The notes below the pieces were generated by a model. That model did no database searches. It was not told where the DNA came from and worked only from the letters and a program-made list of their open reading frames with translations. Below, piece after piece: positions 5,579 to 20,287 of a stretch of DNA of 32,093 nucleotides; within the stretch, counting starts at the first letter, position 1; each line of letters opens with the position of its first letter. Origin of the DNA: a virus. The stretch spans positions 1-32,093 of the IMG/VR virus record IMGVR_UViG_3300032282_003375, one strand, 5' to 3'. The position numbers and the translations under genes are program-made.

Positions 5579-5748
5579 GAGTCTCGACTTGAGACTGTCA
5601 TGATTTTGATGATGGTGTCCTGTGGAAAACGCGCCAAGGCTAGTTGCCTAGCCTCGAACGCATCCCGCGCTTCAGCTGTGTAGGTGTGAATCAGACCCTG
5701 CTTGGGACGTAGTATTACCTTGTAATACCTTATTTCGCTTGATCCCAT
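5575..5748 (-). CDS. Small hypothetical protein overlapping the polA 3' end (57 aa)
   Basis: An easily missed short gene: ATG at 5748 lies inside the last codons of the polymerase gene (19-nt overlap), and its TGA overlaps the next ATG (ATGA at 5578-5575). It reads MGSSEIRYYKVILRPKQGLI, then HTYTAEARDAFEARQLALAR and a short beta end. This beta-hairpin/helix/beta pattern resembles a compact alpha/beta protein. Overlap at both ends and codon use like its neighbours make it a probable real gene; function unknown. Confidence 0.65.
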   Translation of the reverse strand: MGSSEIRYYKVILRPKQGLIHTYTAEARDAFEARQLALARFPQDTIIKIMTVSSRDS

Positions 5749-7553
5749 GAATCTCCGATCTTGGCCTCCGCCAGGGGTGGAACGTCATCTAACCACTCTG
5801 CCTCAGCATCTTGCATGATGGCGGCAAGTTGCTGAGCCCATGACTCAGCATGATCCTCACGCACCAACAGGATCACTTCGTCATGGACCACGCCAGCTAG
5901 ACGCACGATGTCTTCGCCGTCTGCATGGAGCGGCTCCCACAGTTTGCCGAGGGTCCGTTTGAGAACAGCCGCGCCAGCACCTTGGATCGGCGTATTGCAA
6001 CGTGTGGTGAGTTTGTTGTTCTCGCCCGGAAGAAACCTCCGCATCCCGGAGCGGCGAATGTAGATGGGTGCAAGGCCCGAAGACGCATCAGCAGCCCGAG
6101 CATTTTCCCGCTGCCATTTGCTGATGCCCTTGTAAGCAGCGTGGAACTTCTCCCTGATTTCCGCAGCCTCAGCCAAATCCATTTGGATTCCCATCGCGGC
6201 TGCATAATTACGCAATCCTTTCGCTCCGCTGCCATACAACAGGCCAAAATTGGCTGACTTAGCAATTTGTCGCTGGTCCTTGGTGACATCGGCCTCATCA
6301 ACGCCATAGATCTGCATCGCAGTAAGAGTGTGCAAGTCCGTTCCGTCCTGGAACGCCTGGATCATGAGCGCATCATTTGCCTCAGCTGCAGCCAGCCTCA
6401 GCTCCATCTGCGCGTAGTCCGCAACCACCAGTTTGAATCCGGCTGGAGCCTGAACACAGGCCCGAAACCTTACATCTCTCGGTATTTGCTGAAGGTTGGG
6501 CGACATACACGACATCCGCCCGGTGTCAGCCCCAAGTTGCATGTAACTAGCCTTGATAAAACCATCATCTGTAATGTTTTTGAACAATGTCTCAGCCATC
6601 TGCCGCCGTTTCTCCAGTCGCTTCCAGGTCAAATACTCCGCAATAACCGGGTTATTTCCGATGTACTCCTGAAGTGCCAGTTTGCTGGAGCTGGGTTTAC
6701 CAGATTTCTGATCAATCGGTGGCTCACCTAGCAAAGCCGTAAACTTTTTCAACAATTGAACAGGACTATTTAAGTTGAAAAACTCTTTACTACCGATACG
6801 CTCAGCGTCCTCTTTTTTATAGAGGATAGTGTTGTGTTCAGGATCCCTGGGTAACTTGTGATCGTCAGGTAAAGCAGCATCAAAATTAGCGATAAAAGCT
6901 TCTCCAGCCTCAAAGTGGTCGTCATCAAGATCATCAATAAGTTTGTCTAGTAGTTGCTTATTAAAGGGAAGACCCGTTCGATTTAATAAAGCCATGGATC
7001 GAAGTGCCCGGCACTCCAGATCCCAGGCCCTGTGCAAGTTACCCTCAGCCATCCGCTGGTTGATGGGACCATCTAGCTGGATCAACAACTCAACGTCGGT
7101 GGCCGCATACTCCAGTTGCTCCTGGGTCAGATCACCTGACCAGTTGCTCTTCTGCTGCTCTTTTGAGATGTCCTTCTTCAAGTACCGCTTAACCACATGG
7201 GCCAGGCCATGCTTGAGATTTGGCATCCCATTGGTCAGGATGCGACTAGCCAGCATTGTGCAGCGAATATCACCAGCGGGGTGAATGCCATGCACCTGGA
7301 GCCAGCCAATATCGAATGCAGCATTGTGCGCCAGCCAGTACCGGCGCTGATTAAACAACTCCAGCAACGTATCCCAACCGGCATCGTCCAGATCCCAGCA
7401 ATCAACAATCACTGGAGTCCGATCAAGTGCTGCAAACTGCAGCAGCCGTAGACCTCCAACAGTCGGCTGAAGGCCAGTAGTTTCACAGTCAAATGCAATG
7501 GTGGTTGCATTCTGCATCGAGACAACATGCTCGATGCCCATTAAGTAATTCAT
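5730..7553 (-). CDS. polA: DNA polymerase I, family A, with 3'-5' exonuclease
   Basis: The 607-residue replicative polymerase has a proofreading domain with Exo I FDCETTG (21-27), Exo II HNAAFD (76-81) and Exo III YAATD (149-153). The polymerase domain has motif A VVADYAQMELRLA (D379), motif B RQIAKSANFGLLYG (428-441, K432 and F436) and motif C HDE (557-559). It lacks the 5'-3' nuclease of bacterial Pol I, as usual in phages. Phenylalanine at the motif B position equivalent to E. coli F762 predicts normal discrimination against dideoxynucleotides. It extends primers made by the PrimPol-helicase of the same operon. ATG 7553 lies 3 nt after the previous stop. Confidence 0.96.
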   Translation of the reverse strand: MNYLMGIEHVVSMQNATTIAFDCETTGLQPTVGGLRLLQFAALDRTPVIVDCWDLDDAGWDTLLELFNQRRYWLAHNAAFDIGWLQVHGIHPAGDIRCTMLASRILTNGMPNLKHGLAHVVKRYLKKDISKEQQKSNWSGDLTQEQLEYAATDVELLIQLDGPINQRMAEGNLHRAWDLECRALRSMALLNRTGLPFNKQLLDKLIDDLDDDHFEAGEAFIANFDAALPDDHKLPRDPEHNTILYKKEDAERIGSKEFFNLNSPVQLLKKFTALLGEPPIDQKSGKPSSSKLALQEYIGNNPVIAEYLTWKRLEKRRQMAETLFKNITDDGFIKASYMQLGADTGRMSCMSPNLQQIPRDVRFRACVQAPAGFKLVVADYAQMELRLAAAEANDALMIQAFQDGTDLHTLTAMQIYGVDEADVTKDQRQIAKSANFGLLYGSGAKGLRNYAAAMGIQMDLAEAAEIREKFHAAYKGISKWQRENARAADASSGLAPIYIRRSGMRRFLPGENNKLTTRCNTPIQGAGAAVLKRTLGKLWEPLHADGEDIVRLAGVVHDEVILLVREDHAESWAQQLAAIMQDAEAEWLDDVPPLAEAKIGDSWDQAK

Positions 7554-10918: not shown

Positions 10919-11248
10919 TTAACAATCCGTAGGGACGCCAAGCTGCTCGGCTGTGTAGGCAGTCAGGACGCAGACATCCGCACCACACCTCAGGGCCTGC
11001 CCCACGGTGTAGTGAAAGATCTGCTCCGCGTCCTCACACTCCTCGATCTGGAACTCGTCCACCTCCACGGGGTGACCAGCCTGGAACCAGGACAGCCGCA
11101 CGATGGAATGCACCTCGTCGGGCGTGGCACCCGTGGTAAACCCCAGCGTGGGACGCCGGGGTGGTTTTGGTTTGGGCTTACTGGCCACGGGTTTTCTCCA
11201 AAGCAGCCACGAGGCCACGCGCATCAGTCCAAGGTAGAGGTTTGGCAT
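10919..11248 (-). CDS. Hypothetical protein coupled to PrimPol-helicase (109 aa)
   Basis: ATG 11248 overlaps the primase stop by one base (TGATG), a coupling signal that favours it over the GTG-type start 12 nt farther. The protein begins MPNLYLGLMRVASWLLWRK (possible short hydrophobic anchor), then a basic Pro/Lys linker (KPKPKPPRRP) and an acidic alpha/beta domain (DEVHSIVRLSWFQAGHPVEV...). No family recognised; it may assist the primase-helicase it is coupled to. Confidence 0.6.
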   Translation of the reverse strand: MPNLYLGLMRVASWLLWRKPVASKPKPKPPRRPTLGFTTGATPDEVHSIVRLSWFQAGHPVEVDEFQIEECEDAEQIFHYTVGQALRCGADVCVLTAYTAEQLGVPTDC

Positions 11249-13695
11249 CAGTTCGACCAAAAGCTCCGAGCGTCTTCGACAAGCGCGGCAATCTCGTCTG
11301 CAGAACGCTCCTCGCGCGCGTGGGGATATGTCTCAGAGGTGTCCACTTGACCAGATTCATTGCAGGGCAGCGGATCTGCAATGGGACAGGGCGCAGATTT
11401 TGTGGGAAGTGTCCCAGTTGAATCAACGACCGAACCAGAAGTGGGACACCCAGGCTCAGAAGTAGGTATGTGTCCCATTGCAGAACCCTTGCTACCACTG
11501 GTAGTTTGGCTAACGAGACACTCCTCTACTACCTCTCCCCGCGAGGAAGGTTCTAGATCCTTAGCCACCACCGCTTGGTACACGTTTACAACACGACCCC
11601 CTTTCTCGGTCTTGCGTGTACCCGACACACAAATCAAACCCCGCTTCTCCAAACGCTGGAGCGATTTTCTGATTGCGGCCACGCTGCCACCACACAGAGC
11701 ATCCGAATTCAGCTCCTCACGGGTTTTGCCAGCTGGATACATGACACGAAGGCGCTGGAGCACCCTGTCTGTGATCCCAGAAGGCGCTGATTCGGTGGGA
11801 TTGATCTCTGGGGTCCAATCCTCCAGCGTGAAGTTCAGATCCGCTTCCTGGCGCATCAGGAGACTGGTACCACTACGACCAGACCGCGATTTTTCAACGG
11901 TGATGATCCGAGTGTTGTTACCGACTTTGGGTAGCTCCATTTCCTTATCCGTTGGCCGCCTGAGGCTCCATGTTTCGTCCACAGCATCCCGAATGGCGCT
12001 GGTGCCTCTGAACCCACCAGTTTTGTTGGCGTGGTGAATGATCAGGATTGTGGCTGCTGGGAACAGCACCCCGTTATTGCGAGTAAGCCAGTAAAGGGGA
12101 GTAGCAAAGTCAGATTTGTTTTCATCAAAGGCTCGACCACCAGAACAGCCAATGAGCGAGTCGATCACCACCAGCTGGGGCTTTACCCGGTGCATCAGTT
12201 TTGTGAATCGTGCATAGGACTGGAGTGTCCAGTCGGTCCGCAGTGTCACAGGGGCATCAGCAGGCATTTCAACCTCCTGAAGCTGTTCCTGCATCTGCCC
12301 AAGCGGTTGATCGCCATTTAGCAGTAGCACAGGGCCCTGTTCAACTGGGACGTGCTGTCCCCGAATCACAAAGGGATTACCTGTAGCCACATGTTTGGCC
12401 AAGGTCCAGGCAGCCATCGATTTACCATCGCCACCAGAGCCGTAAATCAGCACCACAGACGGGTTAGGAAGTAGGTCTGGAATCAAGTACGTCCGTTTAA
12501 AATCTTTGTCGAAAAGTTCAGCAACGGTCATGGTTTCAGCCTGTGACTCGTACTGGATCTGATCGACATACATTTTCTCCAACTCAAAAGCATCGCGCAT
12601 TTTTGCCTTGTAGGCAATTTTGTGCAGTTCGTACTTTTGTTCAGCTGGATTTTCAAGCTCTAAAGCTTTTTTAGTTGCCGCTATTAAATCGGTAAAACCA
12701 GGCAATCTATCTGGATCAGCATCTGCCTCAAGTTGCATGACAACCCTTCGCAGATCCTCAGGAAGCCACAATCGGCCAGGCATCTGCTGGTCCGCCATCC
12801 AGAACAGTGACCCCAAAGTCACAGGTCCTTTCTTGAACGATTTCCAAACCTCTTCACAAGGATTGGAACCTTTCCACTCGTTAGCAAACTCAGGATCCTC
12901 AGAAGACCACGCAGACCACAACGTGAGGCCAAGATCAGTAGGCAGCTCGCTGTGGATCGCCATGCCCACCTTCACCCAGTGGTCCCGGCTACCAGCACCC
13001 TGCCCTGGGATGACCTTCAAGGCCGACTGAATAATCTCAGCAACTTCACCAGGGTCCCGATCCGAGAAATCAAGGGCCTTACGGTTTTTGATAAAGCCTG
13101 CATCAGCCAGTTCCTTACCAGCGGCCTCTTTCATCTCGGCAATCAACCAACCAGGAGCCTCTGGAATGGAGTCCAGATCGCCTAGAAAGCCATATTCCCC
13201 TTCCAGGCCCTTCCCATCGGTAGAACCGGGATAGGCCCCGTACAGGAGCCCCTGGCGCCCCCACAGCACCTCATAGCCAGCTCCGGTATCGGACAGACCA
13301 AAACCCTTCACATGGGTCCACCAGTAATCCGGTACCAAAAAGAGGTACTTGGCGGCATTCGGCTTGGTGCTCTTTACAACAGGAGCACCGTCCAAGCTAC
13401 TGCCCCATTTTTGAAGCAGTTTCGCAAGGTTTTTGTCTACATCAAGGATCACAAGTCCCTTGCTGCGAGGCCCAGTAAACACCCCAACAGCCTGAAAGAC
13501 AAAAGGCTTCCGCTCGATCTGAAGCGCCACATCTCCTGGCGTCATCACAACATGATGACTTCTCTCCAATGGCGTTTTGCCCTTAGAGATTTTTCCCGAC
13601 TGGAGCGCACAGTCCTTGGCGTAAATGGGGGCATACGCAAACCCTTCAGGCAACTGACGAACAAACGCCAGCAACTCTTGCGACTTCTGAGACAC
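11248..13695 (-). CDS. Bifunctional primase-polymerase/RecA-like helicase
   Basis: An 815-residue replication initiator, first gene of the early operon. The N-terminal PrimPol-like domain (~10-180) has LVILDVDKN (acidic pair D85, D87). A PriCT-2-like segment follows (~212-305: RDHWVKVGMAIHSEL, LWSAWSS). The ATPase (AAA_25/RepA-like) has Walker A YGSGGDGKS (418-426), Walker B LVVIDS (508-513) and IIHHANK (552-558). A winged-helix-like region then precedes a low-complexity Ser/Pro/Gly tail ending DEIAALVEDARSFWSN. It should unwind DNA and make primers for the family A polymerase. GTG 13695 has AGGAG 9 nt upstream. The usual PrimPol His strand appears here as NAAKYLFLVP, with Lys where His is expected. 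Confidence 0.9.
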   Translation of the reverse strand: MSQKSQELLAFVRQLPEGFAYAPIYAKDCALQSGKISKGKTPLERSHHVVMTPGDVALQIERKPFVFQAVGVFTGPRSKGLVILDVDKNLAKLLQKWGSSLDGAPVVKSTKPNAAKYLFLVPDYWWTHVKGFGLSDTGAGYEVLWGRQGLLYGAYPGSTDGKGLEGEYGFLGDLDSIPEAPGWLIAEMKEAAGKELADAGFIKNRKALDFSDRDPGEVAEIIQSALKVIPGQGAGSRDHWVKVGMAIHSELPTDLGLTLWSAWSSEDPEFANEWKGSNPCEEVWKSFKKGPVTLGSLFWMADQQMPGRLWLPEDLRRVVMQLEADADPDRLPGFTDLIAATKKALELENPAEQKYELHKIAYKAKMRDAFELEKMYVDQIQYESQAETMTVAELFDKDFKRTYLIPDLLPNPSVVLIYGSGGDGKSMAAWTLAKHVATGNPFVIRGQHVPVEQGPVLLLNGDQPLGQMQEQLQEVEMPADAPVTLRTDWTLQSYARFTKLMHRVKPQLVVIDSLIGCSGGRAFDENKSDFATPLYWLTRNNGVLFPAATILIIHHANKTGGFRGTSAIRDAVDETWSLRRPTDKEMELPKVGNNTRIITVEKSRSGRSGTSLLMRQEADLNFTLEDWTPEINPTESAPSGITDRVLQRLRVMYPAGKTREELNSDALCGGSVAAIRKSLQRLEKRGLICVSGTRKTEKGGRVVNVYQAVVAKDLEPSSRGEVVEECLVSQTTSGSKGSAMGHIPTSEPGCPTSGSVVDSTGTLPTKSAPCPIADPLPCNESGQVDTSETYPHAREERSADEIAALVEDARSFWSN
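11378..11481. repeat. Four alternating TGTCCCA sites in nested inverted repeats (candidate origin)
   Basis: TGTCCCA occurs at 11410-11416 and 11471-11477, and as TGGGACA at 11382-11388 and 11442-11448; the orientations alternate with starts 28, 32 and 29 nt apart. The outer pair lies in 11-bp arms (11378-11388 and 11471-11481, GCAATGGGACA/TGTCCCATTGC), the inner pair in 8-bp arms (11409-11416, 11442-11449). All lie in the part of the initiator gene that encodes its low-complexity C-terminal tail, as lambda ori lies inside gene O. Confidence 0.55.
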
Positions 13696-13789: not shown

Positions 13790-13795
13790 TACTGT
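13790..13795 (+). promoter_or_regulatory. Possible extended -10 promoter (TGCTACTGT) for 13845 gene
   Basis: TACTGT with an upstream TG (CGTGCTACTGTGACAC) lies 50 nt before ATG 13845, just after the terminator at 13728-13760. The same TGCTACTGT occurs before 15946 and a close form (TACTGTTACAC) before the large terminase. A GGGG-CAA-CCCC mini-hairpin precedes it. No clear -35. Confidence 0.42.
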
Positions 13796-13844
13796 GACAC
13801 AACCTGCAGGACAAAACCTGCTGGAGCAACCACAACACTCAATC

Positions 13845-14432
13845 ATGGCCTTCCTTTCTAAGACTGCAACAGCTGCCATCACCACCTCGTCAAGCGGTGG
13901 CGGCTACCTGAACCTGAGCAAACTGCCCGACAAAGGCTCGGTCCGCATCACCATCCTGAGCGACCAGCCCCTGGAGTATTACGAGGTGTGGGGCACCAGC
14001 GGCACCCAGTCCAAGCCCTTCCGCTTTGACTACCAGCCCACCCCCGAGGACGTGACGGCTGAGATGGGCGACTTCGAGGCCCGCGAAGGTCGTGGCGGCC
14101 CTGGCACAACGGACATCAAGTTCGCCATCAGCGCCCCCGTCTTCAACTACGAAACAGGCAACGTCCAGGTCTGGAGCGTCACTCAAAAGACGATCATGAA
14201 GGAGCTGGACGACATCTCCCAAATGGAGGACTACGACAAGGATCTCACCAGCATCGACCTGATTATTTCCAAGGAGATCCAGGCCAACGGAATCCCCAAG
14301 TACACCGTCCGCCCTGTCCCCAAGAAAAAGGGCAGCCAAGAGCACATCACCGCAGCTTGGCTCGAAGCCCAGGAAGCTGGCTTTGAACTGGATCGCCTAC
14401 TGACCGGCGGCAACCCATTCAAAGCTGCTTAA
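13845..14432 (+). CDS. Possible single-stranded DNA-binding protein (195 aa)
   Basis: ATG 13845 chosen (MAFLSKTATAAITTSSSGGG); the upstream GTG at 13794 would overlap the putative promoter. Gly/Ser N-terminus, then a beta-rich core (GGYLNLSKLPDKGSVRITIL, VWGTSGTQSKPFRFDYQPTP, TGNVQVWSVTQKTIMKELDD). The later part is GIPKYTVRPVPKKKGSQEH, and the C-terminus is helical. OB-like strand pattern and position at the head of a recombination/replication gene group suggest an SSB, as similar genes are annotated in some cyanophages, but no diagnostic motif is present. Strong codon bias and its own terminator imply high, separate expression. Confidence 0.55.
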   Translation: MAFLSKTATAAITTSSSGGGYLNLSKLPDKGSVRITILSDQPLEYYEVWGTSGTQSKPFRFDYQPTPEDVTAEMGDFEAREGRGGPGTTDIKFAISAPVFNYETGNVQVWSVTQKTIMKELDDISQMEDYDKDLTSIDLIISKEIQANGIPKYTVRPVPKKKGSQEHITAAWLEAQEAGFELDRLLTGGNPFKAA

Positions 14433-14512: not shown

Positions 14513-15316
14513 ATGCCTTCTAACACACAAGACACCCTAGCAACTTTAAGACGCTGGAACCTTGTGCAGGACAACAGCGGCCCCCACCGAACGTACTACC
14601 TAGCTGGAAATCCCGAATTCAAATACGCTAGTGTTACACACATCCTGAAGGAAACAAGCGATCAAACCGGGCTGGTGCAGTGGGAGAAGCGGCTGGGACC
14701 TGAGGAGGCCAACAATCAGCGGCAGACTGCAGCAACCCGAGGCAATATGGCCCATTCAAGTGCTGAATACTTACTTAAGACCGCCTCTGCACTGGCACGT
14801 CGAGCGGTCAACAAGCGCACCATCAAGTTTGACGACCGAGGGCTGGCGCGTATCCCACCCCCCATCACCAAATGGGCCCTCGAAAAGGTACACAAATCTC
14901 TACCGCCTGTTGGCTGGAGCGCCGCAGGATACGCCAGGGGACTGACGCAGTGGATCGTGGAGAACGTCACCCAGGTTCACGCATCAGAGTTCAGCATTCA
15001 TCACCCTGCCGGTTTCGCTGGGACCTGTGATGGGTTAGTAGACATCAAGGGCAAGCTCTACGTAGCGGACTGGAAGACAACAGCCCGCGACAAGCACCTC
15101 GACGAAAACCACCAATACGTGCATCAGCTTGGTGCATATAGCCTCGGTCTGCAGCACCTCACAGGACTAAGACCGCAAGGCGGAATAGTCGTCCTAGCCA
15201 GACGGTGTGGAGCGCCCCAAACGTATGAGCTGGGGCTCTCAGAACTCATTCATGCCGAGAATTGTTACCTGGAGCGTGCAAAGCTTTACTACGAAAAGCT
15301 CAATCAACCCGTATAG
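14513..15316 (+). CDS. PD-(D/E)XK exonuclease, RecB/Cas4-like
   Basis: The 267-residue protein shows the motif order of RecB-family nucleases: ASVTHILKE (39-47), RGNMAHSSAEYLL (76-88, motif I-like RG..H), E159 (ASEFSIHHP), GTCDGLVDIKGKLYVADWKT with D173, D186 and K188 as metal-binding/catalytic residues, and HQLGAYSLGL (204-213, QxxxY). Such enzymes resect DNA ends for recombination or degrade host DNA; beside an SSB-like gene, a recombination role is plausible. The ATG at 14513 is just downstream of a terminator, so an own promoter (for example TATTCT near 14486) is expected. The gene contains one isolated CCATTCA repeat copy at 14752. Confidence 0.85.
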   Translation: MPSNTQDTLATLRRWNLVQDNSGPHRTYYLAGNPEFKYASVTHILKETSDQTGLVQWEKRLGPEEANNQRQTAATRGNMAHSSAEYLLKTASALARRAVNKRTIKFDDRGLARIPPPITKWALEKVHKSLPPVGWSAAGYARGLTQWIVENVTQVHASEFSIHHPAGFAGTCDGLVDIKGKLYVADWKTTARDKHLDENHQYVHQLGAYSLGLQHLTGLRPQGGIVVLARRCGAPQTYELGLSELIHAENCYLERAKLYYEKLNQPV

Positions 15317-15346
15317 TGTGCTTACCCACAGTTTGTGACTGGTGCC

Positions 15347-15883
15347 ATGAGTTTGTTTGCGTCTAGCCCCGAAGAACAGTCCGTCAAGAAAACGACGGTA
15401 GCCAATGACCCTGAAAAGCGTTATTGCAAAGGGCGGCCAATCAACCAGGCCCAAATGGATGAGCGCGTCAATGCAGCCTATATGTTGATGCTTCAGGGTG
15501 GATCTCGTAGGGAGAATGCCCAGGTGCTAGCCACACGGTATGGAGTATCTCACCGTCAGGGCGAAAACTATATCCAACAGGCCAACCAGTTGATGAAGAC
15601 CGACTTCGTGGGTCAGAAAGAAGAGCTATTGAATCAAGTGAACAATATGCGGATGCACACTGTAAAGAAAGCTTTGAAGCGGGGTAATTTTCAGGTGGTG
15701 GCACACTTGCTGGATAGCCTGGCCAAGGGCGCTGGAGAAGGATCGGTGGAGGCCAGCGCAGCCCAAGCACCAACGTTGAATATCACCATCGACTCCAAAC
15801 GCAACGATGCGGAGATCGAAGCTCCCAAACCCATTCAAGAGCCTGGCGTAGAAGCCATTCAAGATGCTAGTGCTCAGGACTAA
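15347..15883 (+). CDS. Probable terminase small subunit (HTH)
   Basis: ATG 15347 (MSLFASSPEEQSVKKTTVAN); an upstream GTG would add four residues. A HTH-like region at ~40-75 (DERVNAAYMLMLQGGSRREN, AQVLATRYGVSHRQGENYIQ) is followed by a long helix (KEELLNQVNNMRMHTVKKAL KR) and a low-complexity acidic tail with PKPIQEPG and EAIQDASAQD. This architecture fits small terminase-like DNA-recognition proteins that bind pac/cos DNA and hand it to the large subunit. The large terminase gene is ~3 kb downstream, farther than usual. The last codons contain the first two copies of the CCATTCA repeat array, which could be its own binding site. TATAGT at 15314-15319 is a possible -10. Confidence 0.6.
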   Translation: MSLFASSPEEQSVKKTTVANDPEKRYCKGRPINQAQMDERVNAAYMLMLQGGSRRENAQVLATRYGVSHRQGENYIQQANQLMKTDFVGQKEELLNQVNNMRMHTVKKALKRGNFQVVAHLLDSLAKGAGEGSVEASAAQAPTLNITIDSKRNDAEIEAPKPIQEPGVEAIQDASAQD

Positions 15884-15913
15884 AGTCCTTCGCACGGAAA
15901 CCCATTCATATGC

Positions 15914-15919
15914 TACTGT
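15914..15919 (+). promoter_or_regulatory. Possible extended -10 promoter (TGCTACTGT)
   Basis: Same TGC-TACTGT as at 13787-13795, 27 nt upstream of the GTG at 15946, inside the repeat array. Confidence 0.35.
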
Positions 15920-15945
15920 CATAGAGTAGTAAATCCCATTCAAGA

Positions 15946-16140
15946 GTGATCGAGCTACTAGCTGCTGCCCTTGTGGCATCGCATCATCCCATTGAGAAGT
16001 CAGGTACCTGTCCCGTTGGCTGGTACACGTCTGGTAGTTACTGTGTACCCACAAGCCAGGACACCAAACCAGCCATTCAAAAATATGAGACTTGCCCGCT
16101 TGGCTGGTACTCAACCGGCGACTACTGCCGCAAGACCTAA
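15946..16140 (+). CDS. Mini-protein with two CPxGWYxxGxYC repeats (64 aa)
   Basis: GTG start at 15946. After a short hydrophobic N-terminus (MIELLAAALVASHHP), the protein carries two copies of a Cys/aromatic unit: TCPVGWYTSGSYCVP and TCPLGWYSTGDYCRK, each preceded by an (H/P)(P/A)I(E/Q)K stretch encoded by a CCATTCA-type repeat. The paired cysteines 11 residues apart suggest a small disulfide or metal-bound fold. I associate this motif with small picocyanobacterial and cyanophage proteins of unknown role. The N-terminus is too short and uncharged for a confident signal peptide. Confidence 0.65.
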   Translation: MIELLAAALVASHHPIEKSGTCPVGWYTSGSYCVPTSQDTKPAIQKYETCPLGWYSTGDYCRKT

Positions 16141-16167
16141 AACCCATTCAAGCCTCAAAAACCATTC

Positions 16168-16365
16168 ATGGCTCGCCTAAAACCCATTCAACGACCACCC
16201 CAGTACACGCTTGGCTTTAGTGAGCTGGAGTGGCTTGGCTATAAGGCCTGGTACCGGGAGGGTGTGGCGCGTGGCCAGTTGTTGCCTGACAGTAGCGAGA
16301 ATCATTCTCAGTCTCAAGTGTCTCAGACTGAGACAGTAGAAAGGGGCTCAACCTTTGAAGGCTGA
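16168..16365 (+). CDS. Small hypothetical protein (65 aa)
   Basis: ATG 16168 lies inside a repeat copy (ACCATTCATGG). N-terminus MARLKPIQRPPQYTLGFSEL, then EWLGYKAWYREGVARGQLLP and a Ser/Glu-rich tail. The aromatic 'W.G...W...G..RGQ' segment recalls short cyanophage proteins of unknown function. Its 3' end, including the stop codon, runs through a cluster of palindromes (16297-16369), so the C-terminal tail may be shaped by DNA-level constraints. Confidence 0.55.
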   Translation: MARLKPIQRPPQYTLGFSELEWLGYKAWYREGVARGQLLPDSSENHSQSQVSQTETVERGSTFEG

Positions 16366-16391: not shown

Positions 16392-16826
16392 TTAGCGCTT
16401 GCGTGCTATCCCTGCGTCCTTTCTTTGGGGCTTAGGTGTGAGTTGCGCACGTTGTGAGTTTTCCACAAGATCAGCCTGGGGAAAACCTCCAGCCTTTAGA
16501 ACCGCTTCAGCCGTCAAGGTCTGATGCGAGATGCTGGCCCGATCCAAAACGGCTTGGAACTGCTCAGCCTTTCGGAGCTGAGCTTGCTTAGCCACAAGAT
16601 CGGGCAGCGTTTCTAGGTTCCAGCGATTAGCGCCGATCTTGCTAGCCTCCTGGCGGTTCTCACTGAGCCACGCCAGCACCGAGTCCCCGCATGGATGGTT
16701 CTGCGCCAGCCAGTAGCTATCGGCCCACGCTATCTGGAGCTGGCGTTTCTGTGCTCTGATCAGCTCGCGGGCATCGGCGGCATTGTGTTTCCGCTCCCTT
16801 TGCGTGGTCCACTCTCCTCCGCTCAT
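16392..16826 (-). CDS. Hypothetical basic helical protein (144 aa)
   Basis: Third gene of a small leftward unit; ATG 16826 overlaps the stop of the gene before it (ATGA). The protein is rich in Arg, Gln and Ala with long predicted helices (NAADARELIRAQKRQLQIAW, DLVAKQAQLRKAEQFQAVLD) and a basic Pro/Lys end (TPKPQRKDAGIARKR). Nucleic-acid binding is possible; no family recognised. Confidence 0.58.
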   Translation of the reverse strand: MSGGEWTTQRERKHNAADARELIRAQKRQLQIAWADSYWLAQNHPCGDSVLAWLSENRQEASKIGANRWNLETLPDLVAKQAQLRKAEQFQAVLDRASISHQTLTAEAVLKAGGFPQADLVENSQRAQLTPKPQRKDAGIARKR

Positions 16827-18881: not shown

Positions 18882-18937
18882 GCCCCCCATCCAGCCGGGG
18901 GGCATGGTTGGAAGTTTGAGGGGGCTTGGAAGCCTCC
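18882..18937 (+). other. Two GC-rich hairpins upstream of large terminase
   Basis: GCCCCCC (18882-18888) pairs with GGGGGGC (18897-18903), and a second stem GGGGGCT/AGCCTCC lies at 18920-18937. The ~200-nt gap 18837-19039 otherwise has a TTGACA at 18863 and a TACTGTTACAC at 18970-18980 (possible promoter). Position before the large terminase also fits part of a packaging site. Confidence 0.45.
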
Positions 18938-18969
18938 AGGGAACCTACTGATATATTCACATTTTCTAC

Positions 18970-18975
18970 TACTGT
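18970..18975 (+). promoter_or_regulatory. Possible -10 box (TACTGT) before terminase
   Basis: TACTGTTACAC lies 65-70 nt upstream of ATG 19040 and resembles the sequence at 13790-13800 (TACTGTGACAC). Confidence 0.35.
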
Positions 18976-19039
18976 TACACACCTCCAGGGGGTAGGGGTC
19001 GAGTTTCTGTACTACAGTGCAGGCCAGCCCCAAAAATAT

Positions 19040-20287
19040 ATGAGCACTGGCACTGATTTAACGCTGCGACATGCACAAGGCGAGGTATTTTCAAGCCGAA
19101 AACGTTTCCGAGTTTTAGTTGCAGGCCGCCGATTCGGCAAAAGTTACCTGGCGTGCATCGAACTGCTGCGTGCAGCCATCGAACGACCTGGCGAAACCTT
19201 CTTTTACGCCGCCCCAACGTACCGGATGGCCAAGGACATCGCCTGGAAGGTGATGAAAAAACTAGTCCCAAAAGCCTGGGTCAAAAGTAAAAACGAAACC
19301 GACCTAAAAATCGAGCTGGTAAACGGCAGCACCATCGAACTTAAGGGCACCGAGAACGCAATGGCCCTCCGAGGCCGCAGTCTGGCTGGCGTGGTACTCG
19401 ACGAAGCCGCATTTATGGACCGCGAGGTCTGGTTCGAGGTGATTCGCCCCGCATTAGCCGACAAACAGGGCTGGGCATTGTTCATCTCCACCCCGGATGG
19501 CACGGCTAGCTGGTTTTACGACCTCTGGTGCTATTGCGAAAGCGGCGACGAGAACTGGGCGAGGTGGCAATTCACCACAATCGACGGCGATAACGTCCCA
19601 GCTGCCGAAATCGAGGCCGCCCGAGGGCAGCTCGACCCTCGCACCTTCCGTCAGGAGTTCGAGGCCAGCTTTGAGAATCTCAGCGGTCTCGTCGCCGTCT
19701 CATTTTCAGACGCCAATATCGACGGCGTGGTGCAAGACCTCCCCGTTTTGCCCCTTTTACTGGGGGTGGACTTCAACGTGGACCCAATGTCTGGCGTCTG
19801 CGCGGTCAAAAAGGGCAACGACCTCTGGGTATTCGACGAAATCGTAATGACTGGTGGAGCAACCACCTGGGATTTCTGCGAAGAAGTTCAACGCCGTTAT
19901 GGCGTGGATCGTCGCATCATCGCCTGTCCTGACCCCACGGGTGGCGCCCGCAAAACGAGCGGCATCGGCGTCACCGACCACACCATCCTCAAACGCTCGG
20001 GTTTCAAGGTCTCCAGCCCCAGGGCTCCTTGGAAAATCCGCGACAAGATCACCTGCGTCAACACCGCCCTCCTCGATGCCTCTGGAACCCGCCGCCTTTT
20101 TATCCACCCCCGCTGCAAGGAACTAATCAAATCCCTCCGCACCTTGACCTATGCCCAAGGCACCGGCCTCCCCAACAAAAACCTAGGCGTAGACCACAGT
20201 TTCGACGCCCTGGGATACTTATGCCTCCAAGTTTTCAACCTCGCCAAACCAGAAACCATGGGCCAAACCGGCTATCGTGTGTATTAA
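19040..20287 (+). CDS. terL: Terminase large subunit
   Basis: ATG 19040 (MSTGTDLTLRHAQGEVFSSR) gives 415 residues, a usual TerL length; the frame is open further upstream but that part is not protein-like. ATPase domain: Walker A AGRRFGKS (28-35), Walker B VVLDEAA (118-124, with catalytic E122), coupling motif ISTP (149-152). The RNase H-like nuclease has GVDFN (D244), ACPDPTGG (D298) and LGVDHSFDALGY near the C-terminus (acidic residues for metal binding). It pumps DNA into proheads and cuts the concatemer. The nuclease-ATPase type looks like Terminase_6-related families. Confidence 0.95.
   Translation: MSTGTDLTLRHAQGEVFSSRKRFRVLVAGRRFGKSYLACIELLRAAIERPGETFFYAAPTYRMAKDIAWKVMKKLVPKAWVKSKNETDLKIELVNGSTIELKGTENAMALRGRSLAGVVLDEAAFMDREVWFEVIRPALADKQGWALFISTPDGTASWFYDLWCYCESGDENWARWQFTTIDGDNVPAAEIEAARGQLDPRTFRQEFEASFENLSGLVAVSFSDANIDGVVQDLPVLPLLLGVDFNVDPMSGVCAVKKGNDLWVFDEIVMTGGATTWDFCEEVQRRYGVDRRIIACPDPTGGARKTSGIGVTDHTILKRSGFKVSSPRAPWKIRDKITCVNTALLDASGTRRLFIHPRCKELIKSLRTLTYAQGTGLPNKNLGVDHSFDALGYLCLQVFNLAKPETMGQTGYRVY

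Follow-up and report, generated by a model that had tools for sequence, protein, structure and literature searches.

A direct-repeat array in an uncultured phage genome is shown, by comparison with related sequences, to be one instance of a family-wide feature: many copies of the heptamer CCATTCA lie upstream of the large terminase gene (terL), and nearly all of them point at it. With confidence just short of even, we read the array as belonging to a packaging-initiation field of pac type that is dispersed and directional. How small terminases choose phage DNA is still described as elusive and controversial, given that they bind pac in vitro weakly and mostly without regard to sequence (PMC9611059, PMC4737164). 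A heptamer that stays identical from 27% to 66% GC, is written through codons, faces terL and is purged elsewhere provides a clean sequence handle on recognition and direction.

The sequence studied is a linear IMG/VR virus record of 32,093 bp, the whole of which is called the window here. Its leftward genes, polA and primase/helicase among them, are followed by a rightward block from position 13794, and the head and tail genes run rightward after terL (Table 1). BLAST returned no isolated-phage match to the array region; all sequences are uncultured, and cyanophage-like neighbours lead us to suspect a cyanobacterial host. The Cys/Gly/Trp mini-gene adjoins arrays and is conserved in 32 loci.

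When both strands of the window are counted, CCATTCA occurs ten times on the plus strand and never on the minus strand. Eight of these exact copies fall within about 360 bp (15831-16190), against 0.026 expected on one strand in 354 bp, and unrelated heptamers of the window reach at most 4 copies per 370 bp. An earlier note on this DNA had listed eight exact copies and one variant on a single strand, spanning the end of terS, two gaps and two mini-ORFs; direct counting and the coordinates bear out both statements. Its further rule, that coding copies always read P/A-I-Q or P-I-E, holds within the array and breaks down at the two isolated upstream copies, which read NPFK and A-H-S. The first of these likely owes its presence in a conserved peptide to codon chance.

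Table 1. Genes and CCATTCA copies of the window discussed in the text.
Feature	Position	Strand	Remarks
polA	5730-7553	-	leftward
Primase/helicase	11248-13695	-	leftward
SSB-like gene	13794-14432	+	opens rightward operon; weak fold matches to PRD1 P12 and PrgE; without motif enrichment
Isolated CCATTCA copy	14415-14421	+	end of SSB-like gene; reads NPFK (conserved peptide)
PD-(D/E)XK exonuclease (exo)	14513-15316	+	PF12705, phrog_298
Isolated CCATTCA copy	14752-14758	+	inside exo; reads A-H-S
Putative small terminase (TerS)	15335-15883	+	HTH and long helices; weak Foldseek top matches to G20c TerS
CCATTCA copy	15831-15837	+	inside terS; reads KPIQ
CCATTCA copy	15855-15861	+	inside terS; reads EAIQ
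CCATTCA copy	15902-15908	+	intergenic
CCATTCA copy	15936-15942	+	intergenic, immediately 5' of the mini-gene
Cys/Gly/Trp mini-gene, 64 aa	15946-16140	+	two CPxGWYxxGxYC repeats
Variant CCATTGA	15989-15995	+	within the mini-gene; reads PIE
CCATTCA copy	16073-16079	+	within the mini-gene; reads AIQ
CCATTCA copy	16144-16150	+	intergenic
CCATTCA copy	16162-16168	+	final base doubles as the A of the 65-aa ORF's ATG
65-aa ORF	16168-16365	+	conserved in 6 loci
CCATTCA copy	16184-16190	+	within the 65-aa ORF; reads KPIQ
Convergent gene	16392-16826	-	conserved; right-hand boundary of the array
Large terminase (TerL)	18926-20287	+	PF03237; closest to solved chain 4zni (large terminase of a phage)

Relatives share both the word and its polarity. 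In the 238 kb of loci that surround 30 TerS relatives, every other heptamer is less strand-biased than CCATTCA (192:2). All 40 loci of an unbiased, TerL-based sample with at least 4 kb of upstream sequence carry three or more same-strand copies in the 8 kb preceding terL, the totals being 294 same-strand and 13 opposite copies. In 75 loci with both exo and terL, plus-strand density per kb is 0.08 upstream, 1.72 from SSB to exo, 1.43 from exo to terL and 0.01 past terL, and minus-strand density is at most 0.06 per kb. The repeat is kept in relatives with the same gene order, which passes the conservation part of the refuting test set by the earlier note. A scan of 2.9 million viral contigs by the motif alone retrieved this phage group again, along with exo, SSB and TerL, so that CCATTCA also marks a large uncultured, probably cyanobacterial, group of phages; a genome-wide triple-motif search of prokaryote contigs gave unrelated scattered matches only.

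The position of the arrays is less narrow than the window alone suggested. They lie at the 3' end of exo and/or directly past terS, ahead of the convergent gene, and most relatives have the array behind exo and terS at a distance of 2-3 kb. Because terS adjoins exo in the subgroup to which the window belongs, the array is seen there at the terS end; the proposed small-terminase 3'-end feature is only a local special case, and the limits first drawn for the array were too tight, the field in relatives covering exo and reaching terL. In 16 near-complete genomes, the 10 kb or less upstream of TerL holds 125 terL-facing and 6 opposite copies (7.8 and 7.4 expected). The remaining 531 kb of these genomes has 20 opposite copies against 24.3 expected and 6 terL-facing copies against 26.2 expected, a deficit whose Poisson P of 2e-6 is optimistic given that the 16 genomes are related, although the contrast between strands is internal to the same DNA. 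The terL-facing word is avoided outside the upstream field.

CCATTCA is selected at the DNA level. Under a null model that shuffles synonymous codons within each gene, the strongest motif enrichment in relatives is that of exo, with 206 copies against 34.7 ± 4.9 expected (about six-fold) in all three frames and no copy of the reverse complement; terS has 31 against 7.2, and terL and portal, in the same gene set, have none. Around the core CCATTCA the loose consensus AAAnSCCATTCAWR has, for the most part, A in positions -5 to -3, a G or C in position -1 and, after the word, T and then G or A. The A-rich upstream context described earlier is confirmed by the non-coding copies of relatives, with A in 54-60% of them at positions -5, -4 and -3. 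Spacing is loose, mostly 9-26 bp and without helical period, and tandem forms occur in some relatives, such as L017 (8133-8216, with a period of 9). Homologues of the convergent gene, 86 in number, contain no plus-strand copy, with 13.4 expected from their amino acids and codons.

The word is also present in two further groups of phages. Group C, AT-rich marine phages (26-36% GC) reached first via L042, L091 and G020 and subsequently through homology of exo, has exo opposite to terL in 22 of 22 loci with both genes. Its array, 2-9 kb upstream of terL and around other genes, nevertheless faces terL (112:1) and lies on the strand opposite to exo and to a gene for an O-like protein (332:7); in the latter, antisense copies number 90 against 39 expected. 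Since the word faces terL despite the inverted exo and the swapped replication genes, it is read as DNA, with a tie to genome direction and none to exo mRNA or replication genes. The near-complete group C genomes G020 and G424 have TerS, TerL (80%), portal and head/tail proteins in common with the window and give no match for its polA, primase, SSB or type of exo; replication and recombination genes in this group comprise an Erf-like annealing protein, a RusA-like resolvase and the O-like gene (L091, with homologues in G020). From this swap it follows that the word travels with the packaging and head module, an argument made from two near-complete genomes, the 22 partial loci giving orientation only. 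Group D, very divergent with TerL at about 25% and exo at 27-30%, carries the word 3' of exo and toward terL. Every group also has a distant phrog_298 nuclease near the field, so a nuclease-linked role remains a candidate.

The O-like protein of group C (L091 5645-6166, L446 8492-8995, L484 7792-8217) combines an RHH/Arc-like N-terminus with a C-terminus matching phrog_678, 'replication initiation O-like' (2e-7, 4e-9, 1e-8). Its gene is divergent from a small Arc-like repressor gene, and the array lies between and inside both. We rejected an RHH protein as general reader of the word, as it is at the array in group C only and RHH_1 gave nothing above cut-off in the main group.

A packaging field is the best reading of these data because the copies lie near terL, are linked to the terminase, are independent of transcription and of replication genes, and are avoided in the same orientation elsewhere. 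As one would expect of pac, the field is near the terminase genes and conserved with them, in all 40 TerL-sampled loci and after the replication swap, and it is directional with respect to the packaging and late genes, both in the 16 genomes and in group C. The many 7-bp words, 2-9 kb upstream of terL and pointing at it, would allow a component of the terminase, with the small terminase ring or a partner as likeliest candidate, to gather on the field in the concatemer; TerL would then make the first cut, and packaging would proceed toward terL and the head genes. Sites that are many, short and loosely spaced might favour the phage's own DNA and set the direction, and same-facing copies might be purged elsewhere for the false starts they could cause there. 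Presence, polarity, conservation, selection, direction and avoidance are observed; that a terminase is the reader and that packaging starts at the field is what we infer from them. Of the earlier note's reading, the iteron-like character of the repeat and a packaging-site role are supported, the latter as the best fit because orientation follows terL and the word outlasts the replication-gene swap; the specific tie to the 3' end of terS is not supported.

A weak fold match is what speaks for the small-terminase identity of the product of 15335-15883: the protein has no Pfam match and falls only in a PHROG of unknown function, and its AlphaFold model (mean pLDDT 74.8), with an HTH and long helices, has G20c small terminases as top Foldseek matches in the PDB (E 0.4, prob 0.87) and a VIA Z of 6.2. 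TerL is nearest to the solved chain 4zni and to T4 gp17. Contig breakpoints in the maps of relatives are scattered and several assemblies are circular, which would fit permuted genomes. Several points speak against a packaging field. The putative recognition helix of TerS is of at least three types among relatives, against one invariant heptamer; this is not fatal, because published work describes the binding of TerS to pac as weak and, for the most part, independent of sequence (PMC4737164, PMC9611059). A packaging signal that extends over kilobases and runs through other genes would be unusual, the pac sites of P22 and SPP1 being compact. The terminase is not the sole common factor, given the phrog_298 nuclease, and TerL relatives at about 43% (Vibrio phages and S-2L) have no motif field. 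The common orientation toward terL might also be luck, at about 1 in 4, because the independent lineages are few (three: A/B, C and D).

Known packaging signals offer partial precedents. The pac site of phage P1 is built of clustered short hexanucleotide elements that the packaging enzyme recognises, Dam-methylated TGATC elements within about 160 bp; the clustering of short elements is alike, whereas methylation and span set it apart from the CCATTCA field. The nearest precedent is SPP1, a headful phage whose pac, like that of SF6, has direct repeats within or next to the gene for the small terminase (PMC4737164). SPP1 has few box repeats, compact and over the start of terS, in contrast to a 7-bp word spread over kilobases, inside other genes and in very divergent phages. 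P22 pac is likewise an asymmetric signal that sets the packaging start, but consists of one 22-bp site within the terS gene rather than an array (PMC9611059). A literature search for the CCATTCA heptamer or for heptamer repeats in cyanophages found nothing relevant. We speculate, and consider it rather doubtful, that the copies form a distributed polar address field over 2-9 kb of coding genes, which the packaging motor would read by the number and direction of the words, same-facing copies being cleared from other parts of the genome; this would be the packaging counterpart of KOPS and not one pac box.

An iteron-type replication origin, the alternative named in the earlier note, would have an initiator bind the direct repeats and start one-directional replication; we consider it unlikely. 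In lambda-type origins the direct repeats are embedded in the O coding sequence, and here too repeats lie in coding sequence, adjoin SSB, exo and primase genes and, in group C, overlap and are enriched inside the O-like gene. In the near-complete genomes, rightward genes have a 4-fold-site GC skew between about -0.26 and -0.51 (G019: -0.09) and most leftward genes one of about 0, and a strand-wide bias of about -0.2 suggests one-directional replication. There is, however, no GC-skew switch at the array, spacing has neither a fixed value nor a helical phase, and the avoidance of same-facing copies elsewhere would have no obvious reason. The replication-module swap weakens an origin further: group C gives no match for polA, primase, SSB or an exo of the window's type, yet its word is identical, the gene that carries the word varies, and the O-like gene, an initiator candidate, occurs in group C alone and is not conserved with the repeats.

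The phrog_298 nuclease near the field in all groups speaks for a Chi-like or end-protecting signal, in which polar words near the packaging end would stop or modulate a PD-(D/E)XK or host recombination nuclease coming from the terL side. We give this little credence. Chi and KOPS octamers are short, strand-polar, position-tolerant and genome-wide; CCATTCA is likewise short, polar, insensitive to spacing and unchanged over the whole range of GC content, but it is local and avoided elsewhere, whereas Chi words are over-represented genome-wide. Nor is it enriched in the roughly 400 kb sampled from three small cyanobacterial genomes, which led us to drop it as a host Chi word, although these may not be the host's.

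Improbable in our view are sites for a phage repressor, whether as operators of transcription or as polar, stoperator-like roadblocks where operons end. The arrays at 3' ends of rightward genes, ahead of the convergent gene, and those around the start of the Arc-like RHH gene in group C would suit them, as would the L5-type stoperators of cluster A mycobacteriophages, which are many, asymmetric, oriented with transcription and placed in short gaps (PMC9283540). Stoperators are however 13-mers that cover the whole genome and follow transcription, whereas the 7-mers here are local and follow genome direction, many group C copies being antisense to their host gene. Copies also crowd within the exo coding region, the leftward arm has no site field, and nothing in the main group passed the RHH_1 cut-off.

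A sense-RNA element, such as a 3'-UTR or mRNA-binding motif of exo and terS transcripts, is very improbable. In its favour, nearly all copies in the window's group are sense to exo, terS or small genes, and the minus-strand convergent gene has none; against it, there is no Rfam match, and group C, where neither exo nor the O-like gene shares a strand with the word, largely refutes it. Base pairing of CCAUUCA with rRNA was also considered, and dropped as a chance-level 7-mer match.

Other repeated elements accompany the array or run through the same genomes. CTGGAGC and its kin CTGGAAC and CTGGATC are polar genome-wide, about 2-10 times commoner on the terL-facing strand and including the arm of leftward genes (main-group genomes such as G001-G007 and G412-G417); in its genome-wide spread this word resembles Chi or KOPS, and it has no relation to CCATTCA. 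Short hairpins, for example CTCGGCC-TAAC-GGCCTCGAC-AAAA, stand directly 5' of many copies (L024 6795-6880; after exo in G007, L341, L107 and L101), and hairpin, A-run and CCATTCA form a composite unit. In several relatives the array is followed by a second, GTAC-rich repeat (L017 8216-8400, L007 4700-4850, L360 near 5701), with up to 18 GTAC in 200 bp.
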